This document shows, one piece after another, positions 26,427-45,459 of a stretch of 50,243 bases of DNA. Origin of the DNA: an uncultured Pelagibacteraceae bacterium. Lineage in GTDB: Bacteria; Pseudomonadota; Alphaproteobacteria; Pelagibacterales; Pelagibacteraceae. A program made the translations under genes and the position numbers. The notes below the pieces were generated by a model. The model saw only the letters and a list, made by a program, of their open reading frames with translations, had not been told where the DNA came from and made no database searches. The DNA is taken from assembly GCA_902587315.1 (NCBI GenBank), contig CACIKW010000006.1:1-50243 (forward strand), given 5' to 3'. Every line of letters begins with the position of its first letter. The first letter of the stretch is position 1.

Positions 26427-26726
26427 ATGACTTATAAGGTTACAGAAGAAGGCAACGTCAGCACAGTCTTTCTAAATGGAGAGATTGACATGGATGTTAC
26501 AGACAAAGCCAAAGAAGTTATTTTACCAATAGTAGATTCTGGAAAAGAAGTTCATTTAAACTTAAAAGACGTACAATACATGGATTCATCCGGAATTTCA
26601 GTTTTAATTGAAAGTCATCAAAGAGCATTAGAGAAAAATACAAAAGTAGTGATCAAAGAAGTGAGTAAATCTGTTTTAAAAGTAATTATGATGGCAAAAC
26701 TTGAACAGATACTTAACCTTGAATAA
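26427..26726 (+). CDS. STAS-domain anti-sigma-factor-antagonist-like protein
   Basis: This 99-residue single-domain STAS protein is of the RsbV/SpoIIAA type. The phosphorylation loop QYMDSSGISVLIE carries the acceptor Ser (Ser54) after the conserved Asp. In this family the unphosphorylated form binds the HATPase partner and releases that partner's target; SpoIIE phosphatases reactivate it. Two such phosphatases are encoded in this window (90-2183 and 43251-44531), and the kinase partner is the next gene, sharing one base (TAATG at 26724-26728). It is placed between the pilin genes and the assembly operon, on the opposite strand from both, so it may control pilus or surface functions. Confidence 0.92.
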   Translation: MTYKVTEEGNVSTVFLNGEIDMDVTDKAKEVILPIVDSGKEVHLNLKDVQYMDSSGISVLIESHQRALEKNTKVVIKEVSKSVLKVIMMAKLEQILNLE

Positions 26727-27139
26727 TGAACCTTTCAGAATCTAAAGATTTTCTTGTAAGTACCGCGAGCCTAAAAGAGGTTAGAGTTTTTTCTAGAGAT
26801 GTTTTTGAAAAAATAAATTTACCACAAGATCAAAAAGATGAGTTAGTCCTAGCAATTGCAGAAGCTGCACAAAACATCGTTAAACATGGTTATAAAGGAA
26901 TTAAAGAAACATCTGACAGAATGGAAATTAAAATATCACTAAAAGATGGTGAATTAGAAATAGGTTTTTTCGACAAAGGAAAAAAAGTAGTTCCAGAAAA
27001 TGTTCAACATAGAAAATTAGATGATATTAAACCAGGTGGCTTAGGTACTTTTTTTATAAAACAAATTATGGACAATGCGGTATTTAAAAAAGACCAAACT
27101 GGCTGGGTAAACCATTTGATATTGACGAAAAAAATCTAA
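26726..27139 (+). CDS. HATPase anti-sigma/serine kinase (RsbW/SpoIIAB-like)
   Basis: This 137-residue protein is a GHKL ATPase of the anti-sigma kinase type. The N-box is in ELVLAIAEAAQNIVKHGYKG and the G-box in KPGGLGTFFIKQIMD; the middle strand motif is LEIGFFDKGKKV. The family phosphorylates its STAS partner on serine and, when free, binds a sigma factor or another output protein. The target is not encoded here: no sigma factor is visible in the window. The start overlaps the STAS stop by one base and its end overlaps the convergent GspF gene by 4 bases (27136-27139), with no terminator between them. Confidence 0.9.
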   Translation: MNLSESKDFLVSTASLKEVRVFSRDVFEKINLPQDQKDELVLAIAEAAQNIVKHGYKGIKETSDRMEIKISLKDGELEIGFFDKGKKVVPENVQHRKLDDIKPGGLGTFFIKQIMDNAVFKKDQTGWVNHLILTKKI

Positions 27140-28380
27140 CCTATTAAAGCTCCTACATTAAATATCGGTGAATACATCGCTATCATTAATCCACCTATCA
27201 TTAATCCCATAAATACAATCATAATAGGTTCAATCAAGCTCGACATATTGTCAACGGTACCATCAAATTCTTCTTCGTAATATGATGCAACTGATCCAAA
27301 CATTTCGTCTAGCTGTCCAGTTTGTTCACCAACCGAAATTAATTGGCTAAACGTTGGTGGAAACAAAGGCTCCTTTAAAAAAAGTTTTGTTAAAGTGTCT
27401 CCTGAAAAAACTCCTTTTTTAACATTTTCTAAAGCTTCGGTTACAACTACATTATTACTTACTGATTTTGCAATTTCTAAACTTTCTAACAAATTAACGC
27501 CAGCGGCACTAAGATTTCCTAAAATCAATGATATCCTTGCAAGCAAAGATTTTAAAATCATATCTCCAAAAATTGGCATTTTTAAAACTTGCTTGTGCCA
27601 CTTATATTGTATGGTTGCATTTTTTGTTGTTAAATATCTAAAAGCAACAATAAAAACTATTATTGATACAAGCATAATAAACCCTCCTGTGCCTCTTAGA
27701 AAATCACTCATAGCCATAATAACAGCGGTCGGCTTAGGTAGTGCTATTCCCATGCCATCATACATTTTAGCAAATACTGGTACGACTTTAATTAACATAA
27801 AAGCACTAACAGTAATGGCTACAGAAAACATTATTCCCGGATACATTAATGCTCCCTTAATTTTCTTTTTAATTTTTTCTTTCTTTTCTAATGAATCAAC
27901 AATTTTTAAAAGGAACACATCTAGTTTACCACTGGCTTCACCGGCTTTAATTAGGTTAACATAAACATTGTCAAAGTACTCAGGATATTTTTCAAAACAT
28001 TTTGATAATGTTACACCTCCTTCAAGACTTTTTCTTATATCTTCAATTAAGTCTTTCATTCCAGGATTTTCAAGCTGGTCTCTTAACATTCCAAGCACTT
28101 CTAAAATTGGCAAACCTGCTTTTACCATGGTTGCAAATTGTTTTGAGAAAATAAGAATGTCTTCTACTTTTGGTTTTTTTTTACTGCTAAAAAGTGAAAA
28201 GCCACCACCCTTTTTCCCTTTTGCTTTTGCATCACCTTTTTTTTTCTTTGATCTATTTAAATTAGTAATGATTATTTTTTGTTCTTTAAGCTTATGTGAA
28301 GCCTCATCTTGATTTAACGCTTCAATATCACCCTCAACATATTTACCCTCTGAAATACCCTTGTATGTAAATGTTTCCAT
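27136..28380 (-). CDS. type IV pilus inner-membrane platform protein (PilC/GspF family)
   Basis: This 414-residue polytopic protein has two GspF domains. The first (about 75-200) includes ILIFSKQFATMVKAGLPILE and LIKAGEASGKLD; the second (about 275-400) includes ISLILGNLSAAGVNLLESLE and LISVGEQTGQLDEMFGSVA. Three membrane helices lie near 180-205, 230-250 and 385-410. A basic, glycine-rich linker (KKKKGDAKAKGKKGGG) follows the N-terminal region. It is the membrane base on which the pilus polymerises, driven by the ATPase encoded just upstream (10-base gap). It is the last gene of the assembly operon. Confidence 0.94.
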   Translation of the reverse strand: METFTYKGISEGKYVEGDIEALNQDEASHKLKEQKIIITNLNRSKKKKGDAKAKGKKGGGFSLFSSKKKPKVEDILIFSKQFATMVKAGLPILEVLGMLRDQLENPGMKDLIEDIRKSLEGGVTLSKCFEKYPEYFDNVYVNLIKAGEASGKLDVFLLKIVDSLEKKEKIKKKIKGALMYPGIMFSVAITVSAFMLIKVVPVFAKMYDGMGIALPKPTAVIMAMSDFLRGTGGFIMLVSIIVFIVAFRYLTTKNATIQYKWHKQVLKMPIFGDMILKSLLARISLILGNLSAAGVNLLESLEIAKSVSNNVVVTEALENVKKGVFSGDTLTKLFLKEPLFPPTFSQLISVGEQTGQLDEMFGSVASYYEEEFDGTVDNMSSLIEPIMIVFMGLMIGGLMIAMYSPIFNVGALIG

Positions 28381-28390
28381 TATTAATTAA

Positions 28391-30145
28391 TTATGAGGAT
28401 AAAACTCGCTCATACTCTCTAAAGCTAAGCTCCCCATTTGCAATCATTCTTCGACCCATATCTTGCATGGTTTGAAAGCCCTCTTTTATTGCAATTTCTT
28501 TTAACTCAGGAGTAGTAGCTTGTCTTAGTATGGCTTCTTTAATTGGTTTTGTAACCACTAAAATTTCATAAATTCCTTGTCTTCCCTTATAACCTGTGTC
28601 TTTACATTTTGGACAACCTTTTCCTTTAGTGGCTTTTACTCTTGATGCTTGTTCGGGAGAAAAACCTAAATCAGTTAAAACTTTTGGATTAACATCGTCA
28701 TCTGGCATTCTACATTCTTTACAGTTTCTTCTTGCAAGTCTTTGGGCTAGCACCATTTGGGTTGCAGCACTAATTAAATAATCGGGCGTTCCCATATTTT
28801 GTAATCTTGTAATTGTACTTGGTGCATCATTAGTGTGAAGTGTACTAAAAACTAAGTGTCCAGTAAGCGCAGCTTTTAATCCAATATCAACTGTTTCCTT
28901 ATCTCTCATCTCTCCAACTAGAATTATTTCTGGGTCTTGACGAAGAAAAGATCTTAATGCGGCCGAAAAAGTTAGACCTATATCATCTTTAATTTGAACC
29001 TGTCCAACTCCAGGTAACTCGTACTCTACAGGATCTTCTGCGGTTAAAATATTTAAATGTGGTTGACTTACTTCTTTAAGAATACTGTACAAGGTTGTTG
29101 ATTTTCCTGAACCAGTAGGACCTGTTACAAGAATTAGTCCTTGGGTGCTGTGAATTGCTTTTCTTAAGTTTTTTAAATCGGCATCTTCAAAATTTAATTG
29201 TTCAAGAGTTATATCTCCTGCGTCTTTATTTAGTACCCGCATAACAATTCTTTCGTTACTAGCAGTCGGTAAAATAGATAATCGTAAATCGACAACTTTA
29301 CCATCTATTTTAAAATTAATTGCACCATCTTGTGGCAATCTTCTTTCAGCAATATCTAGTTTACCCATTATTTTAAAACGAGTTACTACAGCACCATAAT
29401 TATCATGAAGAAATTTTCTGTATTGTTCCTGTTCTTGCAGCATACCGTCTGCACGATAACGAACTCTTGAAGAAAATCTATATGGTTCAATATGGATGTC
29501 ACTTACGCCCGATTTAATTGCATCGGCTACAACGGCTGTACTAAATTTTATAACTTCTGACTCATTTTCTAATGCTTCAATATCTTCTTCGGGTGGTTTC
29601 TCAAGAACTTCACCTGCTTCTCCTAAATCACTATCAAAAGTTTTTGTTTTTTCTTTTGCAACATTTTCTTCTCTAATTTTTGCAGTAGTTACATCCCCGC
29701 TTTCGCTTAGTAATTTTTCAATAAAATCAGAAATTTGTGAAACTTTTGCCGCGTGTAATTCGATATTTTTTTTTGTAATAGCTTTTAAATTTCTCATTAA
29801 ACCAAGTTTTGAGCTATCCGAAATTGCAATATGGAGTGTTTTTTTATCTACTTTAAATGGTGCTACAAAATTCATGTTTATATAATTTGAAGGAAGTACA
29901 GTTTTTATTTCATCGCTAATTTGAGCCTTTGTTAAATCAACAATTTCTAGATTTTGTTCTTTAACCAGAACATCTAAAATTTTATTTTCATCGGTTAACT
30001 TAAGTTCAAAAACAGCATCTATCTGGGACTTTTTACCTTCGTTGCTTAGTTTTTTTATATTTGGTAAATCTTTTCCTGATATGATGTCATGGTCGATCAA
30101 GACATTAATAAGATTTATTTCACTTTCTCTACTAATTTTAAGCAT
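28391..30145 (-). CDS. type IV pilus assembly ATPase (PilB/GspE/MshE family)
   Basis: This 584-residue secretion ATPase has an MshEN/GspE-N-type N-terminal region (about 10-150), then the motor domain. Walker A is LVTGPTGSGKSTTLYSIL near residue 340, the Walker B/Asp-box region is RSFLRQDPEIILVGEMRDKE and the His box is LVFSTLHTND. A tetracysteine zinc site is present (CKEC near 477 and CPKC near 512, with GYKGRQGIYEIL), which is characteristic of extension ATPases and absent from PilT. It powers pilin polymerisation. It shares one base with the secretin gene at its start. No separate retraction ATPase is found in this window. Confidence 0.95.
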   Translation of the reverse strand: MLKISRESEINLINVLIDHDIISGKDLPNIKKLSNEGKKSQIDAVFELKLTDENKILDVLVKEQNLEIVDLTKAQISDEIKTVLPSNYINMNFVAPFKVDKKTLHIAISDSSKLGLMRNLKAITKKNIELHAAKVSQISDFIEKLLSESGDVTTAKIREENVAKEKTKTFDSDLGEAGEVLEKPPEEDIEALENESEVIKFSTAVVADAIKSGVSDIHIEPYRFSSRVRYRADGMLQEQEQYRKFLHDNYGAVVTRFKIMGKLDIAERRLPQDGAINFKIDGKVVDLRLSILPTASNERIVMRVLNKDAGDITLEQLNFEDADLKNLRKAIHSTQGLILVTGPTGSGKSTTLYSILKEVSQPHLNILTAEDPVEYELPGVGQVQIKDDIGLTFSAALRSFLRQDPEIILVGEMRDKETVDIGLKAALTGHLVFSTLHTNDAPSTITRLQNMGTPDYLISAATQMVLAQRLARRNCKECRMPDDDVNPKVLTDLGFSPEQASRVKATKGKGCPKCKDTGYKGRQGIYEILVVTKPIKEAILRQATTPELKEIAIKEGFQTMQDMGRRMIANGELSFREYERVLSS

Positions 30146-31719
30146 TATAAAATCCTTGGTGCAATAAACACTAAGAGTTCATTCATTCTATCTGTTTTTT
30201 CGCTTCCTTGAAACATTTTTCCTATTATAGGTAAATTGCCGATTCCTGGAACTTGTTCCTTGGCATCAGATATTTCGTTCTTCTTAATTCCGCCTATTAC
30301 CACAATATCGCCATCTGCTATTAAAAGTTTGGTGTTTATTTCCATTTTATTAATACCGACGGCTCCTGGGTTTGTTCTATCAGGAGTGTCATTGTTTACT
30401 TTTACTTCTAGAAGCACGTTTCCATCACCAATAATACTTGGTGTAACTGTGAGTTTTAATGCTGCATCTTTAAATGATGGAGCTGTATCTCCACTTCCAG
30501 CAACTGGTATTTGTACACCTTGAGTTATAGATGCAACTTGATTGTCTAAAGTAAATAATTTTGGATTAGATATTGTTTTTCCAAGTCCTTCTTTTTCTAA
30601 AGCTTCAATTTGAAGTTTTAATACCGCTGAGCCTGTTTTTCTTAGTACTCCAATACCGCTTGTAGCACCTGCTGCATTAAAGTTAAAAAGACTGTCTGCA
30701 CCTCCGCTTCCTGCGGTACTAATTGCAGAAGTAGTAGAGCTAATATCTGCTCCTGATCCAGTTGGTGCTCCAACCGTAGTACCACCTACAGTACCTCCGG
30801 CTCTAAGTCCTCTTCTTGTGTATGCTGCTCCCAATTTGTTTCCAAGAGCTCTTTCAAAACTAGATGTAGCTTCTACTATGAAAGCTTCTATTAAAACTTG
30901 TTTAGTTCTAACATCAATTTCTCTTATAACTTTATCTACTACATCTAAATCTTTTTCTTTTCCTCTAACAATTATTGATCTTGTAGTTTTTTCTTCTGTT
31001 ATTTGAATAGGATTATAAGCTCCTTCTCCCGATGAGGTAAATAATTCTGTTATAGTCGCCTTAGCTTCTGCGGGTGTGATATAATAAAGTCTAAATATTT
31101 CAGAAACCACAGGTTCAACGGAATCTTCGAGTTCAACTTTTTTTCTAACAGCGGCAGCTCTTGCAGATTTATAGCTTTCTTGAGAAGTTAAAGTGGCCGG
31201 TGAATGAATTCTTATAATATTACTTGCTACATCAATATCTGCAGCAAAATTTTTCATATCTAATAATGCATTAAAAGCTTTATCCCAAGGAACATCCGAA
31301 AGTTCAGCAGATATAGATCCAGCAACTTCTTCTCCAACCAAAATATTTACATCTCCAACTTTTGCCATCAAGCTCATGGCTTCCTTGTAGTCTAAGTTTT
31401 GAAATTTGAATGTTACCTTTTGTTTAAGCAACATATATTCATCGGGTATCAATAGATAGTTTTTCTCTTTAACCGATGAAATTTTCTTTCTTTTCTTTAA
31501 TTTTTTTACATCTCCTTCGATAGGAGTTGGGCCCATTTTAGCACTCTTTTCGATTTCTTTTTTTCCTAATGTTTTAACGTCTTCCTTAATCAATGGTGTA
31601 TTATGTTTAAATACTTTCATTGACTTTTTGCTTTTACCAGCCTTAAGTGTCTCACAACCATTTAACAATAAAAGCAATAAAGAAAATATTGTTAGTAATT
31701 TAAAAGATTTAAAATTCAT
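30145..31719 (-). CDS. type IV pilus secretin (PilQ/MshL-like), lipoprotein
   Basis: This 524-residue outer-membrane channel protein has a lipobox in the signal peptide (LLLLLNGC), so it may reach the outer membrane as a lipoprotein, as MshL does. A basic linker (about 25-95) precedes a secretin N-domain (FQNLDYKEAMSLMAKVGDVN) and a second one (IFRLYYITPAEAKATITELF). The secretin core (about 275-524) has the gate region, ISNPKLFTLDNQVASITQG, and the closing VPGIGNLPIIGKMFQ and ELLVFIAPRIL. A Gly/Ser/Thr-rich insertion (about 300-345) replaces the periplasmic loop. It forms the exit pore for the pilus. The gene shares single-base junctions with both neighbours. Confidence 0.94.
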   Translation of the reverse strand: MNFKSFKLLTIFSLLLLLLNGCETLKAGKSKKSMKVFKHNTPLIKEDVKTLGKKEIEKSAKMGPTPIEGDVKKLKKRKKISSVKEKNYLLIPDEYMLLKQKVTFKFQNLDYKEAMSLMAKVGDVNILVGEEVAGSISAELSDVPWDKAFNALLDMKNFAADIDVASNIIRIHSPATLTSQESYKSARAAAVRKKVELEDSVEPVVSEIFRLYYITPAEAKATITELFTSSGEGAYNPIQITEEKTTRSIIVRGKEKDLDVVDKVIREIDVRTKQVLIEAFIVEATSSFERALGNKLGAAYTRRGLRAGGTVGGTTVGAPTGSGADISSTTSAISTAGSGGADSLFNFNAAGATSGIGVLRKTGSAVLKLQIEALEKEGLGKTISNPKLFTLDNQVASITQGVQIPVAGSGDTAPSFKDAALKLTVTPSIIGDGNVLLEVKVNNDTPDRTNPGAVGINKMEINTKLLIADGDIVVIGGIKKNEISDAKEQVPGIGNLPIIGKMFQGSEKTDRMNELLVFIAPRIL

Positions 31720-32234
31720 TAAAATGGCTCCGAAGTTTCTTTAATTTGGTTTTTAAAATTAATTACTAAATAAGAATCATCTCCTTTTTCAAACACTGCC
31801 TGATGAGGCTGCAATGAAATTAATTTTATACCTTTGCTTAGCTCTTCGTTCATTTGTAATGTGACTATTTCACCTGATGAATTTATTAATGATACATAGC
31901 TTTCATATTCACCTGTCATTATTGCAATAAGTTTAAAGTTATATAAACTCATCTCGCTAGCTTCTTCATCGTCATTTGTAATTATTGCTACAGTGCTTGC
32001 TCCTCCAAGAGATGCATCTCCAACAAAAGGATCATTTAAAGGTAGAGGTTCTGCTTGTTGGTCAGTTTCTGAAATAATATTTGCATTTTTTTCAGCTTGT
32101 TGTTTTTTAATTTTTTGATTAATTTCTTTTGCTTTATCTATTATGTTTTGTTCAGTGTCATGATTGTCAGCAATCGAATTGCTAAAACAAAAAACAGTTA
32201 CTAAAATCAATATTGTTATTTTCTTAAAAATCAC
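31719..32234 (-). CDS. pilus assembly protein, PilP-like
   Basis: This 171-residue periplasmic protein has a signal peptide (ILILVTVFCFSNSIA, cleaved near 22). A flexible polar stretch (about 25-75) leads to a small beta domain: NFKLIAIMTGEYESYVSLIN, then GEIVTLQMNEELSKGIKLIS and VFEKGDDSYLVINF. That pattern fits the beta-sandwich of PilP, which links the PilN/PilO complex to the secretin. No lipobox is seen, unlike many PilP proteins. Position between the PilO-like and secretin genes supports the call, and it overlaps the PilO-like gene by 11 bases. The assignment is mostly from position and fold pattern. Confidence 0.72.
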   Translation of the reverse strand: MIFKKITILILVTVFCFSNSIADNHDTEQNIIDKAKEINQKIKKQQAEKNANIISETDQQAEPLPLNDPFVGDASLGGASTVAIITNDDEEASEMSLYNFKLIAIMTGEYESYVSLINSSGEIVTLQMNEELSKGIKLISLQPHQAVFEKGDDSYLVINFKNQIKETSEPF

Positions 32235-32910
32235 CAGATAACCCCACCACAGTTAGTACACCTTTTACTTTTATCGCACCGGTTGTATCCCCTTTTACCA
32301 CTTGTATAGACTCCTTGTCAAAATTTAACATTTTTTGGGATAAAGACAGGGCTCTTTTAAACTTAATATATCCTAAAAAATTACCATCTATTTCAAAATT
32401 TACTGGTATTTTGTAATAAGCCATAGTTGATGGTTTCTTTTTTTTAGTTTTTTTCTTCTTTTTCTTCTTTTCTTTTTTACCAGACGCTGCGGCCAATGCT
32501 GCAGCTTTTGATACTCCTACAATATTTTGTTTTTCTATTTTTGAGATAACCAAATTGTTTAAACCCGCATAATAACTTAAAGTTTCGTACAAACCTTCCA
32601 CTTCTGCTTTTGTATGAAAGAGTGTTGAGTATTTTTCATAATCAGGAGTAAGTTTTTTTATCTTACTTTTTTTTGATTTTATTTCAGCTACAAACTTTGA
32701 AGTTTCTTGTTTCATTTTATTCATTTTATCTAACTGCAATTTCTTTTTATTTACTATTGGATTTAGAATTGCGTAATAGATGATTAAAAATAAAATTATT
32801 GCTCCAGCTGAAATTCCAATCTTAATTAAAGTTTTCTTATCAGCAAATTGTATAATTTTTGCTTTTATATCTTCAACTTTTAAATTTTTTAAATCTATAT
32901 TTAAATCCAT
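32224..32910 (-). CDS. pilus assembly protein, PilO-like
   Basis: This 228-residue protein has a short cytoplasmic N-terminus, one membrane helix (about 31-51, IGISAGAIILFLIIYYAIL), a coiled-coil (about 55-95) and a periplasmic ferredoxin-like domain (about 100-228). The latter is interrupted by a lysine block (KKEKKKKKKKTKKKKPS, about 145-160). The last strand region is DTTGAIKVKGVLTVVGL. PilO pairs with PilN in the inner-membrane alignment complex; here PilN is fused to PilM in the preceding gene, 3 bases upstream. The lysine block on the periplasmic side is unusual and repeats the theme of the FecR tail. Confidence 0.8.
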   Translation of the reverse strand: MDLNIDLKNLKVEDIKAKIIQFADKKTLIKIGISAGAIILFLIIYYAILNPIVNKKKLQLDKMNKMKQETSKFVAEIKSKKSKIKKLTPDYEKYSTLFHTKAEVEGLYETLSYYAGLNNLVISKIEKQNIVGVSKAAALAAASGKKEKKKKKKKTKKKKPSTMAYYKIPVNFEIDGNFLGYIKFKRALSLSQKMLNFDKESIQVVKGDTTGAIKVKGVLTVVGLSGDF

Positions 32911-32913
32911 TAA

Positions 32914-35316
32914 TTATCCTTTATTCTCCTCAATTATTACAAAAACTCTAAATCCTTTCATCGTTACTCCGCCTTTAGTTTTTCTTGGAAGTTTCATAGA
33001 TGACAGTGATGCTTGTTTAATTAATTTTTGTTTGCCCAGGTTATCAATAAATTTTAAAATATCTTGATCGCTGGATGCAACTCCCGAGATTGTAACACGA
33101 GATTTTCCATTATAATTAACGATGTTAAATTTTACTCTCTTAGGTACACTTGATGCAATTTGTGCTAATATTCTATAACTTAAATCTTTATTTGATTTTA
33201 AGCTTTTGCTTAATTGCAAAGTAGTTGTAATTAATTTTAATTCTTTTGAAATTTCCTTATTTTCCTTAGCTTTTTGTGCATGAGTTTTAGCTACTTTAGA
33301 ATAATCTCTTAGTTTTTTGTTGTACGAATGAATATTCCAAAAAGACAGTGTAAATAAAATTAAATAAATTGCAGCTATTGCACCAGCAACTCCTTTAAAA
33401 GCAAAATTTGAAATCGCTTTCATTTTTTTCTTCTTAAACATTCCCTGTCTATCAGGTAACAAGTTTATGTTTTTTACTGCTGTAACAAATTTATAATAAC
33501 CAAATACATCCAGTTTTCTAAACGCAAGTCCAATAACAGTTGAAAGGTATGATTTGTTTTCTAAATTTAATTGATCCCCTATTTGCTGTGGAATTTGCAA
33601 ACCATTTACCGGGTCAAATGGTGTAAATCCTATATTAACTAAATTTTTTCTAAAATAAGACAAGTAATCATCAATATTTTTTAAATCTGAAACAATTTTA
33701 ATATTTCTTATTCTTTTCTCATATTTAGTTTCAAAATCTTGTACAGCTTGTTTAACTTGCGTTATATATCTTCTAACCAATCCTTCTTTTTCTTCTTGAC
33801 TCTCAGATTCCATCAATATTTTTCTGTCTTGGCCCCTTAAAAATATATCAGTAATTATTGGGTTATTCTCATATAGAATCATAAGATAATTTTCATCTAA
33901 ACCAAATTCTAATACTGCAGTTAAATTTGCATCTTCGGCCTTGTTTGAAATTTGATTGATTTGGTCCACTGCAGATTTTAATGCAAAGCATTTTACATCT
34001 ATAATAACTGGATTAAGTCCACCTGATTTAATTATTGAAGTATAACTATTGATATCTGACAGCTTTGAAGCCACAAACAAAATATCCATGGTGTTGTCTT
34101 TTTGATTTCTATTTATTACTTGATGAAAGATAGAATAGTCATCAAGATTATCTGTCAATTGAACTAAGTTTTCCCAAAGTGAATTTGTTTCTATTGCTTT
34201 TTGTAATTCCTCATCTTTCATCAATGGTGCTGTTACTACTCTTATTATTGCGCTTGTTACTGGAATTGCAATTGCAGCATTAGGTGTTCGAATTTTTGCT
34301 TTCTGTATTGCTATTGATAATTCTGCTCCTATTTTGTCTGCATTATCTAAAACTGCTGCATCTTCTGGTAAATCCATTTTGTGAACAAAAAATTTATCTA
34401 ATACCCACTGATTTGCTTTATTGCTTGAGATTTGCGCTAATCTAATCTCTTTATTTGTAATCTCGACTCCAACTATTTCTTCTCCCTGCGCTGAAGATTT
34501 TCCTAATTTTGATTTAAAGAAATTTTCTAATTTTCCTTTTAAATTACTTTTTCCTCTCGCAGGTGCTTTTATTGCTTTGTCTCCACCGCCAAATGAAGGT
34601 TTTTTAAATTTAAATGCCTTTAACTTACCAAGAATATTTGTAGCGGTTTTTGGTTCTACAGTTTCAGTTGCTTCTATAGGTTTGGTAACACTTTTTTCAG
34701 CAACTATTTCAGGTTTTTTTTCTGCTGCAGGCGATGCTTCAACAGGTGGTATTTCTGTTGTTGTGGTTGTCACTTCTACTGGAGTTACAGTTTGTTCCGT
34801 TGTAGCAGATGACTGTTCACTTGTGCTAACTGATGTTTCTTGTTGTGCGGCTTCTTCTTTTCCTTTGTTTGCATGAACATCATCAAACCATTTTTCTAAT
34901 ATTGGTATTGCTTCTTCAAGATTAGGAGTTCCTGATGAAGAAATTTTTTGTTTTCCATCAATATAAAGTCTTCCTACCCAATTTTTTGATTTTAATTCGC
35001 CTTTGTACTTATCCTGTCTTACATATATATGTAGTCTTCCGTCTTTTTTATGAATTACCTCATGTTCTTTCTTTTGTTCTGTGGCAGATTCATTTTTTTC
35101 ACTAGATTCTGGGCTAGGCTGCTCTGCAGTTGCAGATTTTGCATCATCAGTTAGTTTATTTTCGCTTTCTGGTTGTTTTTCATCCTGATTTTGATTTATT
35201 TGGTTATTAGATTGATCAGAAGTATTATCAGGTGGCGAGCTTACACCTTCTGATTGTTTATCTTCAGGTTTTAGCTCTTCCTCTTTATTTATATCTTTGT
35301 TATCTTCATCATTCAT
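32914..35316 (-). CDS. PilM-PilN fusion with extra N-terminal domain
   Basis: This 800-residue protein joins functions that are normally separate. Residues 1-88 are polar and disordered. Residues 92-147 form a small domain (GRLHIYVRQDKYKG, KNWVGRLYIDGKQ, EEAIPILEKWFDD) with a strand-strand-strand-helix pattern like arm-type/AP2 DNA-binding domains. Residues 150-235 are Thr/Glu/Pro-rich and 235-275 basic. PilM, an actin-like ATPase fold, covers about 280-600 (IVGVEITNKEIRLAQI, AAIAIPVTSAIIR). The PilN motif NINLLPD is at 616-622, a membrane helix at about 641-660 and a periplasmic PilN domain at 662-800. The INLLP peptide normally docks on PilM, so the fusion ties both in one chain. First gene of the assembly operon. 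Confidence 0.88.
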   Translation of the reverse strand: MNDEDNKDINKEEELKPEDKQSEGVSSPPDNTSDQSNNQINQNQDEKQPESENKLTDDAKSATAEQPSPESSEKNESATEQKKEHEVIHKKDGRLHIYVRQDKYKGELKSKNWVGRLYIDGKQKISSSGTPNLEEAIPILEKWFDDVHANKGKEEAAQQETSVSTSEQSSATTEQTVTPVEVTTTTTEIPPVEASPAAEKKPEIVAEKSVTKPIEATETVEPKTATNILGKLKAFKFKKPSFGGGDKAIKAPARGKSNLKGKLENFFKSKLGKSSAQGEEIVGVEITNKEIRLAQISSNKANQWVLDKFFVHKMDLPEDAAVLDNADKIGAELSIAIQKAKIRTPNAAIAIPVTSAIIRVVTAPLMKDEELQKAIETNSLWENLVQLTDNLDDYSIFHQVINRNQKDNTMDILFVASKLSDINSYTSIIKSGGLNPVIIDVKCFALKSAVDQINQISNKAEDANLTAVLEFGLDENYLMILYENNPIITDIFLRGQDRKILMESESQEEKEGLVRRYITQVKQAVQDFETKYEKRIRNIKIVSDLKNIDDYLSYFRKNLVNIGFTPFDPVNGLQIPQQIGDQLNLENKSYLSTVIGLAFRKLDVFGYYKFVTAVKNINLLPDRQGMFKKKKMKAISNFAFKGVAGAIAAIYLILFTLSFWNIHSYNKKLRDYSKVAKTHAQKAKENKEISKELKLITTTLQLSKSLKSNKDLSYRILAQIASSVPKRVKFNIVNYNGKSRVTISGVASSDQDILKFIDNLGKQKLIKQASLSSMKLPRKTKGGVTMKGFRVFVIIEENKG

Positions 35317-35849: not shown

Positions 35850-37079
35850 TTAAACATTTTTTACACTCATCATTAATAAAAAACCAATAAAAAAAAAAAT
35901 TGAGATAGATAATAAGCCTACTCTTTGAGAAAACATATAAGTCATTGTCCCAACTAATAATGGTCCTGCAAAAGCAGTAATACGACCAGAGAAACTAAAA
36001 AGTCCAAAACCTTTTCCTAAATCTTTTGTTTCTAATAATTTTGTCATCATAACACGACTAGCGCTTTGTATTGATCCGATGAACAAAGAAATAACCATAA
36101 CGTTATAAAAAAATTCAGTTTTAGTTTGAGCAATCATTGAACCATAAAAAACTGTTAACATTAATACAGCGATACAAATTAAAATAATATTTTTAGAAGA
36201 ATATTTATCATTTAAGTATCCTCCTATCATAACTCCAAAGAATGCAACTATGTTGGCAACTATTGCAAGTTTTAATAATTCTGCTGGAGTATAATTAAAA
36301 ACTCCTGAAGCGTAAACGCCGCCTCCAGCAATTAAAACAATTAATGCATCAGAGTATATCATTCTTGCCAAAAGAAATTTACCCGTAGTAGTAAATTTAT
36401 TATTCCAAATAATTTTAATAATTTGTGTTGAAGTGGGAGTTTCGTCAGTATCTTCATCATAAGAAACTTTTTTTTTAAAAAAATATATCATTGGCAATGA
36501 AAAAATTAAAAACCAAATTGCAACAATGAAAGGAATGAATCTTATATTTTCAAAATTACTCTTATCTAATCCAAAAGGGATTTGTTCTGGCAATACAAAC
36601 AAATATAAAGAAATTAAAATCATCGGCACACATCCAATGTAACCTAAAGCAAAACCAAAGCCAGAAGTTTTTCCAATATCATTTTCATCAGAACATTTTT
36701 TCAATAATGAATTATAAAATATTGATGCAGCTTCATAAAAATAATTTGAAATAAAAAAAATAAATAAAGTATATAAAATATAATTTGAGTTTGGCTTTGC
36801 AAACCAGAACAAACAAGTTGTAATGATACAAAGAAAAGTAAATCTTTCTAAAAATTTTATTTTACCTTTGGCTTTTTTATCTGCTATTGCGCCAAGGTAT
36901 GGCCCTGAAATTGCAATTGCAATTCCGCAGGCACCTGCGGTCCACTGCCAGTATGCAGCACCTATTTGTGGATCTCCTACTATTTGCTTTGCAAAATATG
37001 CTGAAGTAATAAATGTAATTATAATTACACTATAAGCTGAGTTAGCTAAATCATATAAAGCATAAAATAATTTATTCAT
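35850..37079 (-). CDS. MFS transporter, UMF1/Atg22-like
   Basis: This 409-residue membrane protein has about twelve helices. The N-terminal segment FYALYDLANSAYSVIIITF is the hallmark of the UMF1 (Atg22-like) branch of the major facilitator superfamily, and the first loop reads PYLGAIADKKAKGKIKFLER, the equivalent of MFS motif A. The second half has GVMIGGYLNDKYSSKNI at the matching loop. The substrate is unknown; distant relatives export amino acids from vacuoles. It overlaps the upstream HTH gene by 8 bases (37072-37079), so the pair is co-expressed. Downstream lies the motif array with no obvious terminator. Confidence 0.88.
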   Translation of the reverse strand: MNKLFYALYDLANSAYSVIIITFITSAYFAKQIVGDPQIGAAYWQWTAGACGIAIAISGPYLGAIADKKAKGKIKFLERFTFLCIITTCLFWFAKPNSNYILYTLFIFFISNYFYEAASIFYNSLLKKCSDENDIGKTSGFGFALGYIGCVPMILISLYLFVLPEQIPFGLDKSNFENIRFIPFIVAIWFLIFSLPMIYFFKKKVSYDEDTDETPTSTQIIKIIWNNKFTTTGKFLLARMIYSDALIVLIAGGGVYASGVFNYTPAELLKLAIVANIVAFFGVMIGGYLNDKYSSKNIILICIAVLMLTVFYGSMIAQTKTEFFYNVMVISLFIGSIQSASRVMMTKLLETKDLGKGFGLFSFSGRITAFAGPLLVGTMTYMFSQRVGLLSISIFFFIGFLLMMSVKNV

Positions 37080-37623
37080 TAATCCTTTCCATTTCTAACA
37101 GTTTGTTTAATGCTCCACTATTTTTCCATTTTTTAATTAATATACTTATATCCGCTGTAGTTTGTGTGACAAATTCTTTATAAATTGTTTTATAGCTAGT
37201 TCCTAATTTAATTCCTTCTAATTGATTAAATTGTAAAATGTTTATTTTACATAGTTGCAATACTTTTCTTCTCACTGTTTCTCTTGGAAGCTGAAGCACT
37301 TCAGCAATGCTTGCATATGTTAATTTTCTATGCTTTTTGTTTTCTCTTATGTTTGATATTTCGTATTCAACCTCTGAATATGTTTTTGATCCAGTTTTAT
37401 TTAGTTCGTAAAGATTATGACTAACAACAACTTGAAGGATTACGAATGACTCTATATCCATCTTTAATGTACTTCTAACTCTAGAATAAAAATCAATTAC
37501 AAACATTATCCAATGGTAAAGTCCTTTAGAAAAGATTGGCTCTCCCTTTGCAGTTACATTTGAAATATTCTCAAAAGAAACTACAGTATTATCGTCGCCT
37601 ATTTTAGTTTTACTAATGCTCAT
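37072..37623 (-). CDS. helix-turn-helix transcriptional regulator, unclassified
   Basis: This 183-residue cytoplasmic protein has a helix-turn-helix near residues 100-130: LTYASIAEVLQLPRETVRRK, the form used by GntR/Crp-type winged helices. The N-terminal half (about 25-95) is helical, with WIMFVIDFYSRVRSTLKMD, and could be for dimerisation; no ligand domain is recognisable. It is divergent from the surface-protein gene at 37727, sharing a 103-base gap, and overlaps the MFS gene downstream. Likely targets are its own promoter and the surface-protein promoter; the inverted repeat AAACTAGG/CCTAGTTT in the gap is a candidate site. The motif array at 35.3-35.7 kb is another possible target. Confidence 0.7.
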   Translation of the reverse strand: MSISKTKIGDDNTVVSFENISNVTAKGEPIFSKGLYHWIMFVIDFYSRVRSTLKMDIESFVILQVVVSHNLYELNKTGSKTYSEVEYEISNIRENKKHRKLTYASIAEVLQLPRETVRRKVLQLCKINILQFNQLEGIKLGTSYKTIYKEFVTQTTADISILIKKWKNSGALNKLLEMERINE

Positions 37624-37726: not shown

Positions 37727-40552
37727 ATGAGAAGATTAATACTTTTAGCTCTCATTTCGTTTTTTTATAGCGGTTCTGCCTCGGCTGGACCGTGTGATAC
37801 AACGGTTTCGGGCACTTCAACTTCCACATTAAATTGTGACGACAATGACTCTTTAATTGTTAGTGGTTCGATAACTTATGATGGTCAGAATGCTGTCAAT
37901 GCACAACAGGATGAAGGTGTAACAATCACAAACACAGGAACTATTCAATCAACAAACCATTCTGCTATCAAAGGACAGAGTTCATTAAGTCTTGAAATAA
38001 CTAATAGCGGCACAATATATTCTGAAAATAACTATGGTATTAAACTTATAGAAGCTGAAAAAGTAACCATAACAAATGAAGCGGGTGGTATAATTAAAAC
38101 TGACCCTAGTGCGTCCGCTGATTCAATTGCAATTGGTGGAACTAAAATCGGAAATTGTGTTGTCACTTGTGTAGATGAATCAACAACATCTTCTGGAGAA
38201 GGTTTGACTTTGAAAAACTATGGCACCATAGATTCTTATGCATCAACTTTATACGGAGGATCGAATAGCGCACATGCTTCAAAAAAAACTAAAATATATA
38301 ACTATGATGGCGCTACAATTGATGCCACAAATATATTTGCAATTAGATTTGATCACGCAGAAGATTTTACACTGAATAATTATAGTGGAGCAACTATACA
38401 AACTGATAATAGTTATGGAGCTGTTAGTTTATTAAGTGCAGAAACTGTTGCAATAGATAATGAAGGAGCAATTACAGCGGCTAACAAGTGGGGCGTATAT
38501 TGCTATTATTGTGAAGACATTACACTTACAAATTCCGGAACTATAACTGCCACCGTAAGAGCTGTAGACTTGGGAGAAATTACTGGTACAAATACTTTTA
38601 CAAATTCAGGAACCATCACTGGAACTGCTGATACTTCAAATGTTGGAGCGGTAAATTTATTAAAAGCAACTGGTGTAACTTTAACAAACTCAGGAACAAT
38701 TTCATCAGAGAGTCAGTATGCAATTGACGCCGAAAATGCTTACAGTCCAACTATAATAAATTCTGGAACAATTAGTTCTTCAACAACTCTTAATAATGGC
38801 AATGCTATAGAATTGTCGCAATCTGGATCAGGAACTGCTGGAAGCGGTGCAACGATTACTAATTCAGGAACAATTAAAGCACCAGGAGGAACTGGTGGAA
38901 CTGGAATAAGAATTGGCTCTGGTTCAATACCTTATAATGATGTGACAATTACAAACTCAGGAACTATATCAGGTACTAATGATTCTATATATGTCCAAGA
39001 AAGCGATACAACAGGAACTAATATCATTACAAAAGAAGAAGCAACTTACACAGGTGAAATTAATATGGGAAGTGCTGTTGTTGAAATGACTTTAGATTGT
39101 AGCATTAAAAAAGATATGGACATTGAAATACATAGCAAAACCAACATGACGGTTACCAATAATTTATGTGGAAATGACACTTATGAAATTTTAGATTCTT
39201 CAAAAAATGCTGATGCTGATAACTCTGAAACGAACGGATATTTAAGAGTTCTTGGAGAAGATCTTGAAATAGCTCAAGACAATCCAAAATACAGAAGCGA
39301 AAATGTTTTAACTAAGTTTAAAGGTTTGTTTGATGCGGCAAATTATATAAATTGGCATGCTCCAGAAGATAAATTTTTTAAAATCTTTCACAGTGCACAA
39401 AAAAGAGAAGGAACTTACAAAGGAACAATGTCAGGTGTGGTTGGCCAACTGAGTCCTTTTATTTTAGGTGATATTAGAAATAATATTTTTCTTGGCTACA
39501 CAAGACAGGGTGGAGACTTTGACAATGGTGAGTTCTTGGGAGGAGATAATTTTGCACTGGGTCTAAAAAGTGTTTATGAAAATAATGGATTTAAAGCTAG
39601 CTTTACTCCTATGGTTGGAGTGAATGATTTGACAGTTACCGATTACGATACAGATACTAAAACTTCAATTAGTACTAATTTATTCAGTGAATTTGCTGGC
39701 ATTAATACTAAACTTGGAAAAGATATTGAGTTAAGCGAAGAAGGTTCCTTAAGTCTAAGCGTTCAATCAACTCTTGGCCTACAGAGATTTCCGGATTATC
39801 TTGCAAAATTTAGCGATGGAGATTTATCTGTTAATGAAGCTATTGAACAAGTGTTGGGCGTGGGTTTTGAAGTCAAATATATCGACGAACTTGCAGAAGG
39901 TTTTATTGTTCAGCCTTATGCGGGAATTAATATAAATAATAATCTTAACAATTCTATAAAGATTACTGCAGATGGAGAAAATAAAAATGTATCTCCTGCA
40001 TCTTCTTCAGCCACAGGTTATTTTGCGGGACTATCTATAATAAAAAATTTAGATGAAGGCTTAAATTTTGATTTCGAACTGTCCTACAGCAATGAAGACG
40101 GATTGATAAATGAAGTTGCCTCAGTTTCATTGGTTAAATATTTCGGAGTAGAGCCAAAAAACCAAATTCCAAAGCTCGATGTAAGAGATATAAGAAAAAA
40201 ACCTGATTTAGAAAAAATTAATAAATATTTAACAGCTCAAAATGATAATAAAGAAGAAAAATTAAATGTAATTATTAAAAAAACTATTCAAGAAAACTTG
40301 GTTAGTAAGCATTTGATTAAAGAACTGATTAAAGAAGTAGAAAGACTAACATTAACAAATAAAATTTTCAAAAATAAGATTATAGAAAATGAAACAAGAA
40401 GTTTTAAAAATAAAATATTTGAAATAGATTACACCGAAATTAATAGATTTTTTTTATTAGGATTTTTACTTGTTATGGCTTTTGCATCATACGGTTTTTT
40501 AATTTTCATTACCGCTGCATATAAAAAAATAATATTTAAATTAGCGAACTAG
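37727..40552 (+). CDS. giant surface protein 1: beta-helix passenger, autotransporter-like barrel, C-terminal coiled coil and membrane helix
   Basis: This is a 941-residue exported protein. The start at 37727 is chosen because it begins a good signal peptide (MRRLILLALISFFYSGSASA) and matches the paralogue at 40626; a longer start at 37616 would bury it. Residues 24-515 are repeats around (T/I)TNSGTI, a right-handed beta-helix pattern. From about 518 (DNPKYRSENVLTKFKGLFDA) comes a conserved linker and then a barrel (about 555-807), ending VSLVKYFG like a beta-signal. Instead of stopping there, the chain continues with a charged helical region (808-900) and a hydrophobic helix (906-931). Probably a surface adhesin or receptor; the role is not known. 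Confidence 0.82.
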   Translation: MRRLILLALISFFYSGSASAGPCDTTVSGTSTSTLNCDDNDSLIVSGSITYDGQNAVNAQQDEGVTITNTGTIQSTNHSAIKGQSSLSLEITNSGTIYSENNYGIKLIEAEKVTITNEAGGIIKTDPSASADSIAIGGTKIGNCVVTCVDESTTSSGEGLTLKNYGTIDSYASTLYGGSNSAHASKKTKIYNYDGATIDATNIFAIRFDHAEDFTLNNYSGATIQTDNSYGAVSLLSAETVAIDNEGAITAANKWGVYCYYCEDITLTNSGTITATVRAVDLGEITGTNTFTNSGTITGTADTSNVGAVNLLKATGVTLTNSGTISSESQYAIDAENAYSPTIINSGTISSSTTLNNGNAIELSQSGSGTAGSGATITNSGTIKAPGGTGGTGIRIGSGSIPYNDVTITNSGTISGTNDSIYVQESDTTGTNIITKEEATYTGEINMGSAVVEMTLDCSIKKDMDIEIHSKTNMTVTNNLCGNDTYEILDSSKNADADNSETNGYLRVLGEDLEIAQDNPKYRSENVLTKFKGLFDAANYINWHAPEDKFFKIFHSAQKREGTYKGTMSGVVGQLSPFILGDIRNNIFLGYTRQGGDFDNGEFLGGDNFALGLKSVYENNGFKASFTPMVGVNDLTVTDYDTDTKTSISTNLFSEFAGINTKLGKDIELSEEGSLSLSVQSTLGLQRFPDYLAKFSDGDLSVNEAIEQVLGVGFEVKYIDELAEGFIVQPYAGININNNLNNSIKITADGENKNVSPASSSATGYFAGLSIIKNLDEGLNFDFELSYSNEDGLINEVASVSLVKYFGVEPKNQIPKLDVRDIRKKPDLEKINKYLTAQNDNKEEKLNVIIKKTIQENLVSKHLIKELIKEVERLTLTNKIFKNKIIENETRSFKNKIFEIDYTEINRFFLLGFLLVMAFASYGFLIFITAAYKKIIFKLAN

Positions 40553-40625
40553 AACTTTAAACCCTTAAAAACTATCAAAACCGGTCATTGCTAAATTTAT
40601 TTTAGAATGTCATAATAAAAAAATT

Positions 40626-42947
40626 ATGAGAAGATTAATACTTTTAGTTCTCATTTCGCTTTTTTATAGCGGTTCTGCCTCGGCTGGACCCTGTGAAGGA
40701 GACATTCCATCTAAATCTAGTGGTGGAACATGGTGTAGCAATGGTGACACCGGTACAATTGCTTCTGATGTTACTTTAACTAGAGATCAACAATTCTCAC
40801 TTGTTCCTTCTGACAATACGACTATTACAAATTATGGAAACATACTGAATGATACAAATAAAACAATTAACACAGAAGCACAATACGGTGGTGATAGTTT
40901 TACTTTTAACAATAAAAGTACAGGTGTCGTAAGATCAACAAAATCTAGAGCTATATGGTTAAGAGATAACGAAGATGGAGTTGTGATTAATAATGAAGGT
41001 GAAATCTACGCATTGATGGACTGTGCAATTTGTTCATCGAATGCTTGGGGATCAATAACCATAACTAACTCGGGAACAATACATACTGGCACGACCGATT
41101 TAACTGATAGTGATTACTACCTGTGGGAGGTTTATAACACAGCCATAGGGATTACGTCCCCAAACACTGGTGCTTCATATACTATAAATAATTCAGGAAC
41201 AATTAAATCTGTAGATGATAATCTTGCAGGGATTTATGTCGAAGACGTTGCTAATGCAACTATAATTAACTCTGGCACAATCCAAGGACATGGAACAAGA
41301 AGAGCTATTAATATTCAAGATCATGGTACAGAAACAGGAACAACTATTAAACTTAGTGGTGAACCAACGTTCACTAATGGTATTGATTTAGCTAAAACTA
41401 TTACCAATATAGTTTTACAAAATGATATTACCGGCGATTTAACGGTAGAGATTTATAATTATGATGGTGATTTAACAATTACAAATGAACTTTCAGGTAA
41501 TGATACTTATACTTTAACAGAAGAAGATTTAGACAGCGATGGGACAGCTGATGACGGTACTCTAACAATTCTTGGTGAAGATCTTGAAATAGCTCAAGAC
41601 AATCCAAAATACAGAAGCGAAAATGTTTTAACTAAGCTTAGAGGTTTATTTGATGCTGCAAACTATATTAATTGGCATTTCCCTGAAGATAAAATGTTTA
41701 AAATATTTCATAGTGAACAAAAAAGAGACGGAACTTACAAAGGAGAAATGTCAGGCGTTGTTGGTCAGTTAAGTCCTTTTATTTTAGGTGATATTAGAAA
41801 TAATATTTTTCTAGGTTATACAAGACAGGACGGAGACTTTGACAATGGTGAGTTCTTGGGAGGTGATAACTTTGCATTAGGCTTAAAGAGTGTTTATGAA
41901 AACAATGGATTTAAAGCATCCTTTACACCTATGATTGGTTTGAACGATCTAACTGTTACTGATTTTGATACAGATACAAAAGCAAAAATAAGCACAAATT
42001 TATTATCGGAATTTGCTGGGTTTAATACAAAACTTGGAAAAGAAATAAAAACAAGCGAAGATAGTTCTTTAAGCTTAAATGTTCAGTCAACTTTAGGATT
42101 GCAAAGATTTCCTGAATACCTTGCAAAATTTAGTGAAGGAGACTTATCAGTCGATGAAGCAATAGAACAAGTTCTTGGTGCGGGATTTGAAGTAAGATAT
42201 GTGGAAGGACTTGGAAAGGGTTTTGTTATTCAACCTTATATTGGGGCCAATGTTAATAACAATCTTAATAATTCAATAAAGATTACTGCTGATGGAGAAA
42301 ATAAAAATGTATCTCCTGCAAATTCAACAACTACAGGATATTTTGTAGGTGTTTCTCTAACTAAAGAAGCAGCAGATATTAATTTTGATTTAGATTTAAT
42401 GTATGGAAATGAAGATGGATTAATTAATCAAATTGCAGCTATTTCATTAACAAAATCATTTGGAAAATCTGGAAAACAGGCTGAAAAAATTAAACCAGAT
42501 CAAAAATATAAAACAGTAAGTGCATTATCGAATAGAGATTTAAAAGAAATTAAAGACCTTAAGTATTTAAACGAAATTTTAGAGGCTGATAATAAACTTT
42601 TAAAAGCAGAAAACAAAAAATTGGTGGCACAAAATAAAAAGTTAGCAAATTTGAATGACAAGTTAGAAAAATTAAGCATTGAAACGCTTAAAGAAAATAA
42701 AGACAGCAAGAAATTAATTGTTGAGCTATTAAAAGAAAATGAAAAAATTAAATTAGAAAAAGAAATTTTTAAAAATAAAATATTGAAAGCTGAAAACGAA
42801 GAGTTAAAAGAAAATACAAAAATACTTCAAGAAATCGAAAAAAGTGTTTCAGAAGATGATGCCAATAGATTTAAATTATTATTATTTGTTATTATTTTAT
42901 TTTTAATTAGTTCAGCTCTTGTTTCTTTAGTTGTACGATCAAGATAA
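40626..42947 (+). CDS. giant surface protein 2: short beta-helix passenger, barrel, long coiled coil and membrane helix
   Basis: This 773-residue paralogue of the preceding protein is encoded 73 bases downstream. The signal peptide region is nearly identical at the DNA level over about 70 bases. The passenger (24-320) is shorter, with (I)TNSGTI repeats. The linker and barrel (about 324-613) are closely related, ending ISLTKSFG. After the barrel come about 105 residues of clear heptads (DNKLLKAENKKLVAQNKKL and similar, about 640-745) and a terminal helix FKLLLFVIILFLISSALVSL (749-768) with a basic end RSR. A coiled coil of this length would be about 16 nm, close to the width of the periplasm. 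The family and function are not recognised. Confidence 0.82.
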   Translation: MRRLILLVLISLFYSGSASAGPCEGDIPSKSSGGTWCSNGDTGTIASDVTLTRDQQFSLVPSDNTTITNYGNILNDTNKTINTEAQYGGDSFTFNNKSTGVVRSTKSRAIWLRDNEDGVVINNEGEIYALMDCAICSSNAWGSITITNSGTIHTGTTDLTDSDYYLWEVYNTAIGITSPNTGASYTINNSGTIKSVDDNLAGIYVEDVANATIINSGTIQGHGTRRAINIQDHGTETGTTIKLSGEPTFTNGIDLAKTITNIVLQNDITGDLTVEIYNYDGDLTITNELSGNDTYTLTEEDLDSDGTADDGTLTILGEDLEIAQDNPKYRSENVLTKLRGLFDAANYINWHFPEDKMFKIFHSEQKRDGTYKGEMSGVVGQLSPFILGDIRNNIFLGYTRQDGDFDNGEFLGGDNFALGLKSVYENNGFKASFTPMIGLNDLTVTDFDTDTKAKISTNLLSEFAGFNTKLGKEIKTSEDSSLSLNVQSTLGLQRFPEYLAKFSEGDLSVDEAIEQVLGAGFEVRYVEGLGKGFVIQPYIGANVNNNLNNSIKITADGENKNVSPANSTTTGYFVGVSLTKEAADINFDLDLMYGNEDGLINQIAAISLTKSFGKSGKQAEKIKPDQKYKTVSALSNRDLKEIKDLKYLNEILEADNKLLKAENKKLVAQNKKLANLNDKLEKLSIETLKENKDSKKLIVELLKENEKIKLEKEIFKNKILKAENEELKENTKILQEIEKSVSEDDANRFKLLLFVIILFLISSALVSLVVRSR

Positions 42948-44694: not shown

Positions 44695-45459
44695 GTGTTT
44701 TATATCTTAGTATTTATTTTAGGAAGTGTCTGGGGAAGTTTTTGTAATGTCTGCATATATCGGCTTCCCGGCAATGAAAGTATGTTTAAAAACAGATCGT
44801 TTTGTCCTTCATGCAAAAATCAAATAAATTGGTACGACAATATTCCTTTCTTCTCATATATTTTTCTCAAAGGTAAATGTAGAAATTGTGACTACAAAAT
44901 AAGTTTACAGTATTTTGGGGTTGAGTTTATTGTGGCAATTAGTTTTCTTATAATTTATTTTTTATACGGAATATCTGCTACATCATTATTGTTAATGATA
45001 TTAAGTATTTTTTTTACAATAATTTTTTTTATTGATTTAAAACATTTTATAATTCCAAATGAGTTAACATTTCCTTTAATGGCAATTGGTTTTTTGAAAT
45101 CTTTTGATCCTAATTTAAATCAAACAATATTTCCAAATTATATTAATTCAATCATTGGAGGAGTTTTTGGTTACTCGATAATTTGGTTAATAATTTTTGT
45201 CTATAAAAAAGTTAGAAAAAAAGAAGGAATGGGACTTGGTGATGCTAAGTTAATGGCTGTAGTTGGATTTTGGTTTGGCTGGATAAGTATTCCATTTACA
45301 ATATTTATTTCTTCAGTTGTTGCATTGATTATAGTAATTCCATCTTTATTAAAAAAAACTAGAGACTTGTCAGCTCAAATTCCTTTTGGACCTTATATTA
45401 TTATTGGATGCTTAATTTATGTTTCGCTTTCCAATCAAATAAAATTCTTTTTACTTTAG
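44695..45459 (+). CDS. pilD: type IV prepilin peptidase (PilD family)
   Basis: This 254-residue inner-membrane aspartic protease cuts prepilin leaders and methylates the new N-terminus. The start is GTG at 44695, giving the usual GSVWGSFCNVCIYRLP. The N-terminal cytoplasmic domain has the two zinc CxxC pairs (CPSCKNQINWYDNIPF and CRNCDYKI). Two catalytic Asp residues are present: FIDLKHFIIPNELT and GMGLGDAKLM. About seven to eight helices follow. It serves the two pilins at 25.3-26.3 kb. It overlaps the convergent PilY1-like gene by 4 bases (45456-45459). Confidence 0.95.
   Translation: MFYILVFILGSVWGSFCNVCIYRLPGNESMFKNRSFCPSCKNQINWYDNIPFFSYIFLKGKCRNCDYKISLQYFGVEFIVAISFLIIYFLYGISATSLLLMILSIFFTIIFFIDLKHFIIPNELTFPLMAIGFLKSFDPNLNQTIFPNYINSIIGGVFGYSIIWLIIFVYKKVRKKEGMGLGDAKLMAVVGFWFGWISIPFTIFISSVVALIIVIPSLLKKTRDLSAQIPFGPYIIIGCLIYVSLSNQIKFFLL

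Follow-up and report, generated by a model that had tools for sequence, protein, structure and literature searches.

The window analysed here is the 50,243-nucleotide contig CACIKW010000006.1 (assembly GCA_902587315.1) from an uncultured Pelagibacteraceae (SAR11) bacterium, and at 37727-42947 it carries two tandem paralogous genes whose products, proteins 1 and 2, resemble type Va autotransporters but continue past the predicted outer-membrane β-barrel into a charged helical region, a terminal hydrophobic helix and a short basic tail. Judged from sequence and structural models, both are read as type Va-like autotransporters with a trans-envelope anchor that would hold the surface protein in place and take no part in signalling, a reading to which a probability of about 0.58 is assigned. 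The fuller proposal, in which a single polypeptide provides both an outer-membrane β-barrel and an inner-membrane helix and so forms a static bolt through the envelope, carrying an exchangeable passenger at a type IV pilus locus, is given even odds. The coordinates and two-paralogue layout drawn in the first-pass annotation of this DNA were right (Table 1).

Up to the end of the barrel the two chains follow the plan of known autotransporters, and they share 53% identity across 677 aligned columns, highest in the barrel. Each has a hydrophobic N-terminus with a small-residue site judged by eye, followed by a passenger bearing TITNSGTI-like repeats. A search of the source genome with the autotransporter barrel profile PF03797 scored 29.5 bits for protein 1 and 31.5 bits for protein 2 (cut-off 26), and hmmscan gave 27.1 bits for protein 2 and no PF03797 row for protein 1. 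AlphaFold2 models built with family alignments (residues 474-941 of protein 1, mean predicted local distance difference test score (pLDDT) 65.3; the whole chain of protein 2, mean 68.8) show a pore helix with 12 long strands for each protein, the last strand spanning residues 793-806 in protein 1 and 599-610 in protein 2. The corresponding barrel end motifs, SLVKYFG and SLTKSFG, stop at residues 807 and 613. BrkA, EstA, EspP, NalP and AaaA were the top Foldseek rows for the modelled barrels, and the best VIA Z scores, over 270-294 residues, were 24-28 for NalP, 25-28 for EspP, 23-28 for EstA and 26 for AaaA, a family's absence from the VIA lists not amounting to its exclusion. The modelled passenger of protein 2 aligns with β-helix tailspikes at a VIA Z of about 17. 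A sequence search of the PDB with protein 2 returned just two rows (E 0.56 and 0.86). Both barrels are accordingly modelled as autotransporter-type, with closure predicted from their match to solved barrels, in agreement with the signal-peptide-like start, repeat passenger and barrel first proposed for both chains. It had been considered that the last hydrophobic segment might itself be a barrel strand, or that no closed barrel precedes the extension; in both models the 12 long strands end before the extension and the segment is a helix at the chain's end, and the strand assignment is rejected.

The residues beyond the barrel, 134 in protein 1 and 160 in protein 2, bear out the charged helix and terminal hydrophobic helix noted at first pass. 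Mean Kyte-Doolittle hydrophobicity reaches 2.42 at residues 910-928 of protein 1 and 3.06 at residues 752-770 of protein 2. The model of the protein 2 extension comprises a loose linker, a helix of 101 residues (643-743), which at 0.15 nm per residue would measure about 15 nm, and a terminal helix of 26 residues (746-771); that of protein 1 comprises three helices. Across 20 measured members of the family, the window's two included, the terminal helix and basic tail are always kept, the mean hydrophobicity of the helix lies between 2.00 and 3.06, and the barrel-to-helix distance is 103-139 residues, falling within 119-128 in 16 of them. In 19 of the 20, at most 8 of 200 shuffled sequences reach the observed heptad value (5 of 200 for protein 2). 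The tail beyond the helix is 2-20 residues long, with at least two lysine or arginine residues in 20/20 and no aspartate or glutamate in 19/20. Under the positive-inside rule, a basic tail following the helix would place the C-terminus in the cytoplasm. The terminal helix of one relative, L230, contains a tandem IIFA-type repeat that makes its hydrophobic stretch longer than those of other members.

The same order recurs among relatives. A scan of named genomes covered 80 of 94 relatives, all titled Pelagibacteraceae except L094 (Candidatus Pelagibacter ubique) and L024 (a metagenome-assembled genome titled Alphaproteobacteria). Among 84 rows, made up of the window's two proteins and the relatives from the scan, 12 end in a hydrophobic helix, 70 lack one and 2 are cut by contig ends. 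A barrel tree, made by a quick method with midpoint rooting and no outgroup, and with one piece of L086 left out, places all 12 helix-bearing proteins and one cut-off row on one side and the 70 with the other cut-off row on the other (Shimodaira-Hasegawa-like approximate likelihood ratio test support 100). Within L086 (4090-6169), and also in L128, a family gene lies in two overlapping frames and is likely a pseudogene or a sequencing error. A profile of the extension matched in 29 of 297 genomes of the family and added 8 helix-bearing proteins from three other genera. Fourteen of its loci comprised nine helix-bearing and two helix-free members, two MreC-like proteins (named by eye) and one unread locus, L154; the tail of L129 is the same as that of L027. 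A genus search matched the family in 56 of 399 genomes (12 of the 57 of good quality), and 20 hand-picked stretches from it, 19 of them readable (all but L236) and several repeating species from the relatives scan, yielded 4 more. In total, 24 different SAR11-family proteins from four genera bear the terminal helix, and all 24 tails differ, though two pairs are 96-98% identical over their last 130 residues. Helix-bearing genes stand as tandem pairs in L024, L025 and the window; in both L024 and L025 one family gene falls in a distinct sub-branch (support 100) and has a further member next to it.

The sister group of 70 helix-free proteins has a shorter coil, extending 52-82 residues past the barrel (n=69). 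Both groups share the coil core EN..MK.LI..L.KEN.KLK.E, so the coil belongs to the family as a whole and the helix distinguishes a single branch. The coil as a common module of SAR11 was rejected on the result of the extension profile (29 of 297 genomes matched, 14 of its loci read). In the helix-free loci L006, L007, L010, L011 and L012, no continuation or helix gene was found directly downstream (about 120 codons in three frames); in L006 a separate pilin gene lies downstream of the autotransporter gene. Outside this family, none of 70 control PF03797 hits from Alphaproteobacteria had a coil and hydrophobic helix past the barrel. These controls represent 68 distinct genes (two counted twice), drawn from 30 returned loci and 40 hand-picked, non-random ones, and are strong PF03797 matches, whereas the family in the window exceeds the cut-off only narrowly. 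Sixty-five of the 70 stop no more than 25 residues from the Pfam match, and in 62 of these the final residue is F, W or Y; the third autotransporter of the window's own genome likewise stops at its barrel. In the searches made here, the barrel-coil-helix layout was found only in SAR11.

Passengers and platforms have different affinities. Protein 2 and the second autotransporter gene product of L024 are 98% identical in the passenger, 78% in the barrel and 41% in the extension. At the DNA level, identity is 96-100% over residues 1-360 and 44-81% beyond, falling from 97% to 78% at about residue 360, and the synonymous divergence (dS) is 0.03 for the passenger against 1.30 for the barrel. The passengers of L019 and L020 share 93% identity with that of protein 1, and their barrels match its barrel at 81% and 78%; the first gene product of L025 is 93% identical to protein 1 in the barrel, 89% in the extension and 47% in the passenger. 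These gene comparisons show passengers to have been exchanged by recombination on a standing barrel-coil-helix platform, an observation that is new here.

A route by which such a protein could be assembled follows from these features. The Sec machinery would export the chain until its terminal hydrophobic helix lodges in the inner membrane, leaving the basic tail in the cytoplasm. The β-barrel assembly machinery (BAM) would then fold the modelled 12-strand barrel into the outer membrane by way of an internal β-signal, and the passenger would fold as a surface β-helix. From its length, heptads and models, the segment of 103-139 residues may form a rod crossing the periplasm, probably as a coiled coil of two or three chains. 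Barrel, coil and helix together would then act as a fixed display platform onto which passengers recombine, and the anchor would most likely keep the surface protein in place, whether beside the pilus machine or against shear or shedding. A terminal helix in the inner membrane, with the tail inside and the rod across the periplasm, is the best reading of the sequences and models. The first-pass annotation had proposed a link between the cell surface and the inner membrane, perhaps for tethering or signalling. Conservation of the barrel-coil-helix order in one clade makes the tether the best reading; signalling is unlikely because a tail of 2-20 residues leaves no room for a domain, and the position of the gene among type IV pilus genes also points to a holding device.

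Several observations weigh against an envelope-spanning anchor. The sister group without the helix accounts for 70 of the 82 complete rows. Confidence in the extension is low (pLDDT 26-69 over this block of protein 2) and the rod was modelled as a single chain, which leaves it plausible, not proven. Protein 1 has only weak heptads, its observed value being reached by 25 of 200 shuffles, and additive insertion energies of the terminal helix are marginal (-1.0 to +0.3) in 6 of the 8 members from other genera. In seven comparisons, the ratio of nonsynonymous to synonymous substitution (dN/dS) was 0.27-1.47 over the 24-33 codons of helix and tail, against 0.07-0.12 in the barrel and 0.17-0.52 in the coil; the residues of the terminal helix vary freely, and what is conserved is therefore its hydrophobicity and not its sequence.

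This variability also bears on the main mechanistic rival, in which the terminal helix tethers the chain only during export and a protease then cuts it, leaving a free periplasmic coil. Such a transient anchor would suit a helix less conserved in sequence than the coil, and a sister group that stops just past the shared coil core. A barrel-to-helix distance held so narrowly in most measured members would be needless for a disposable anchor, and this alternative is considered rather improbable. A terminal helix that turns back into the outer membrane, leaving nothing to reach the inner membrane, is very unlikely: helical outer-membrane anchors do occur in some phyla, and the analyses made here place the helix in neither membrane specifically, but the basic tail that follows it in every measured member and the conserved length of the connector both speak against such an arrangement. 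A fusion, frameshift or assembly artefact might be suspected from the source genome, a fragmented assembly of 859,448 bases in 38 contigs that is 73.89% complete, but 24 different proteins, taken from separate records, show the same order, which refutes it; this explanation was rejected and retains a negligible probability.

A further alternative is that the coil or helix binds inner-membrane pilus proteins, making these autotransporters dedicated outer-membrane partners of the type IV pilus machine instead of a general tether. In tblastn searches of the flank fetched for each locus (E up to 1e-6), 71 of 80 relative loci match at least one pilus protein of the window, with pilY1 matched in 63 and pilD in 38, and a coil core common to both groups is what would be expected of a conserved partner. 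The family is nevertheless matched in only a minority of the genomes searched in the genus, including those of good quality, and this alternative is regarded as doubtful, if worth keeping in view. The static tether is preferred over all of these.

The pilus cluster of the window comprises pilC, pilB, a secretin gene, pilM-pilN, two prepilin-like genes, pilD and a pilY1-like gene. In the helix-bearing branch, 7 of 9 loci have a pilus match (counting L026, whose end is cut off), the exceptions being L021, a short stretch, and L022. The association is already partly in print: in the available text of PMC12636525 the SAR11 autotransporter adhesin is "always positioned next to" type IV pilus and/or type II secretion genes, and in that of PMC2217521 the autotransporters of hypervariable region 1 (HVR1) of HTCC1062 are listed together with pilins. 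The helix-turn-helix gene of the window also lies near the family gene in L020, L023, L026 and L027. A GAF-SpoIIE phosphatase (43251-44531) and an HATPase_c_2 (anti-sigma-like) protein (26726-27139) flank the pilus genes, and this pairing suggests that partner switching controls the pilus locus; a match to the phosphatase gene occurs at 37 of the 80 loci. At 32914-35316, PilM and PilN domains share one open reading frame (ORF) of 800 residues with a long low-complexity N-terminus. In the helix-free locus L044 (7075-12973) the autotransporter gene is convergent with genes for transglutaminase-like membrane, DUF58-like and MoxR-like ATPase proteins (named by eye), after which comes another autotransporter-like ORF that lacks this kind of tail.

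Table 1. Positions of the two autotransporter genes, their predicted segments and neighbouring genes in the window.
Feature	Position	Strand	Size, basis or remark
Autotransporter protein 1 (P0001), whole gene	37727..40552	+	941 aa
Protein 1 putative signal peptide, ~aa 1-22	37727..37792 (passenger starts at 37793)	+	By-eye call; hydrophobic 4-22; protein 2 start nearly identical
Protein 1 passenger, TITNSGTI-type repeats	37793..39256	+	93% identity to L019 and L020 passengers
Protein 1 predicted pore helix and 12-strand barrel, aa 519-807, end SLVKYFG	39281..40147	+	AlphaFold2, Foldseek, VIA
Protein 1 linker and charged helices, aa 808-908, probably periplasmic	40148..40450	+	AlphaFold2; coil core common with sister group
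Protein 1 terminal hydrophobic helix, ~aa 909-928	40451..40510	+	Hydrophobicity, AlphaFold2
Protein 1 basic tail TAAYKKIIFKLAN, aa 929-941	40511..40549	+	Sequence
Autotransporter protein 2 (P0002), whole gene	40626..42947	+	773 aa
Protein 2 putative signal peptide, ~aa 1-22	40626..40691	+	By-eye call
Protein 2 predicted β-helix passenger, aa 23-316	40692..41573	+	AlphaFold2; 98% identity to passenger of L024 second gene
Protein 2 predicted pore helix (aa 326-351) and 12-strand barrel (358-610), end SLTKSFG	41601..42464	+	AlphaFold2, Foldseek, VIA
Protein 2 linker and 101-residue helix 643-743, coiled-coil-like, probably periplasmic	42465..42875	+	AlphaFold2, heptads
Protein 2 terminal hydrophobic helix, ~aa 751-770	42876..42935	+	Hydrophobicity, AlphaFold2
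Protein 2 basic tail RSR, aa 771-773	42936..42944	+	Sequence
Divergent helix-turn-helix protein, possible regulator	37072..37623	-	Pfam rows below cut-offs
Type IV pilus genes: pilC, pilB, secretin (pilQ), two ORFs without Pfam rows, pilM-pilN in one ORF	27136..35316	-	Pfam
Prepilin peptidase, pilD-like	44695..45459	+	Pfam A24
PilY1-like pilus protein, runs to contig end	45456..50243	-	Pfam T4P_PilY1

The type Va autotransporters (PF03797; NalP, EspP, EstA, AaaA and BrkA) are the nearest described relatives of this design, sharing a signal-peptide-like start, a predicted β-helix passenger, and the modelled pore helix and 12-strand barrel. They end with the barrel, whereas a coil and hydrophobic helix come after it here, and proteins 1 and 2 depart accordingly from the C-terminal position of the translocator described in the available portion of PMC9289746. 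A helical connection between the membranes has other precedents. TolA and TonB reside in the inner membrane and make contact with distinct outer-membrane partners, whereas here one chain would be integral to both membranes. SlpA of Deinococcus (PMC9388160) and OmpM of Veillonella (PMC10628300), as presented in the accessible parts of these articles, likewise connect the envelope through an outer-membrane barrel and a long periplasmic coiled coil; their coil is N-terminal and bears a peptidoglycan-binding SLH domain, whereas that of proteins 1 and 2 is C-terminal, ends in a hydrophobic helix and is accompanied by a surface passenger. No Pfam row for an SLH domain appeared in either protein at E up to 1, and the coil sits past the barrel. 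The SAR11 adhesin (PMC12636525) and the HVR1 autotransporters of HTCC1062 (PMC2217521) also adjoin pilus or pilin genes, sometimes in hypervariable regions. The adhesin genes are about 5000-9500 bp long, against 2.3-2.8 kb here, and the available text of these two articles contains no mention of a coil, inner-membrane helix or envelope-spanning tail. A literature search of titles and abstract openings, with partial coverage, found no description of a single chain that combines a barrel, a coil and an inner-membrane helix, and with such coverage novelty is not proven. Neither protein has an NCBIfam model, and the extension has no Pfam model. The first-pass view that no described family has this order holds to that extent, with the correction that the proteins belong to a SAR11 autotransporter family of two branches: theirs is long-tailed, and the other carries the coil without the helix.

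What keeps the outer membrane attached to the remainder of the cell is an active question, and the connectors compared here end in peptidoglycan or join separate proteins. An OmpA-domain protein of the peptidoglycan-binding kind had one match in each of 26 of 31 relative genomes, including all 15 of good quality. If the reading of proteins 1 and 2 as static tethers is true, one protein embedded in both membranes would hold the outer membrane in a novel manner, and its assembly would have to use an internal β-signal while the end of the chain sits in the inner membrane. The available text of PMC12636525 names SAR11 bacteria as the heterotrophs of greatest abundance in the surface ocean, and the swapping of passengers on this platform offers a route to study variation of their surface.
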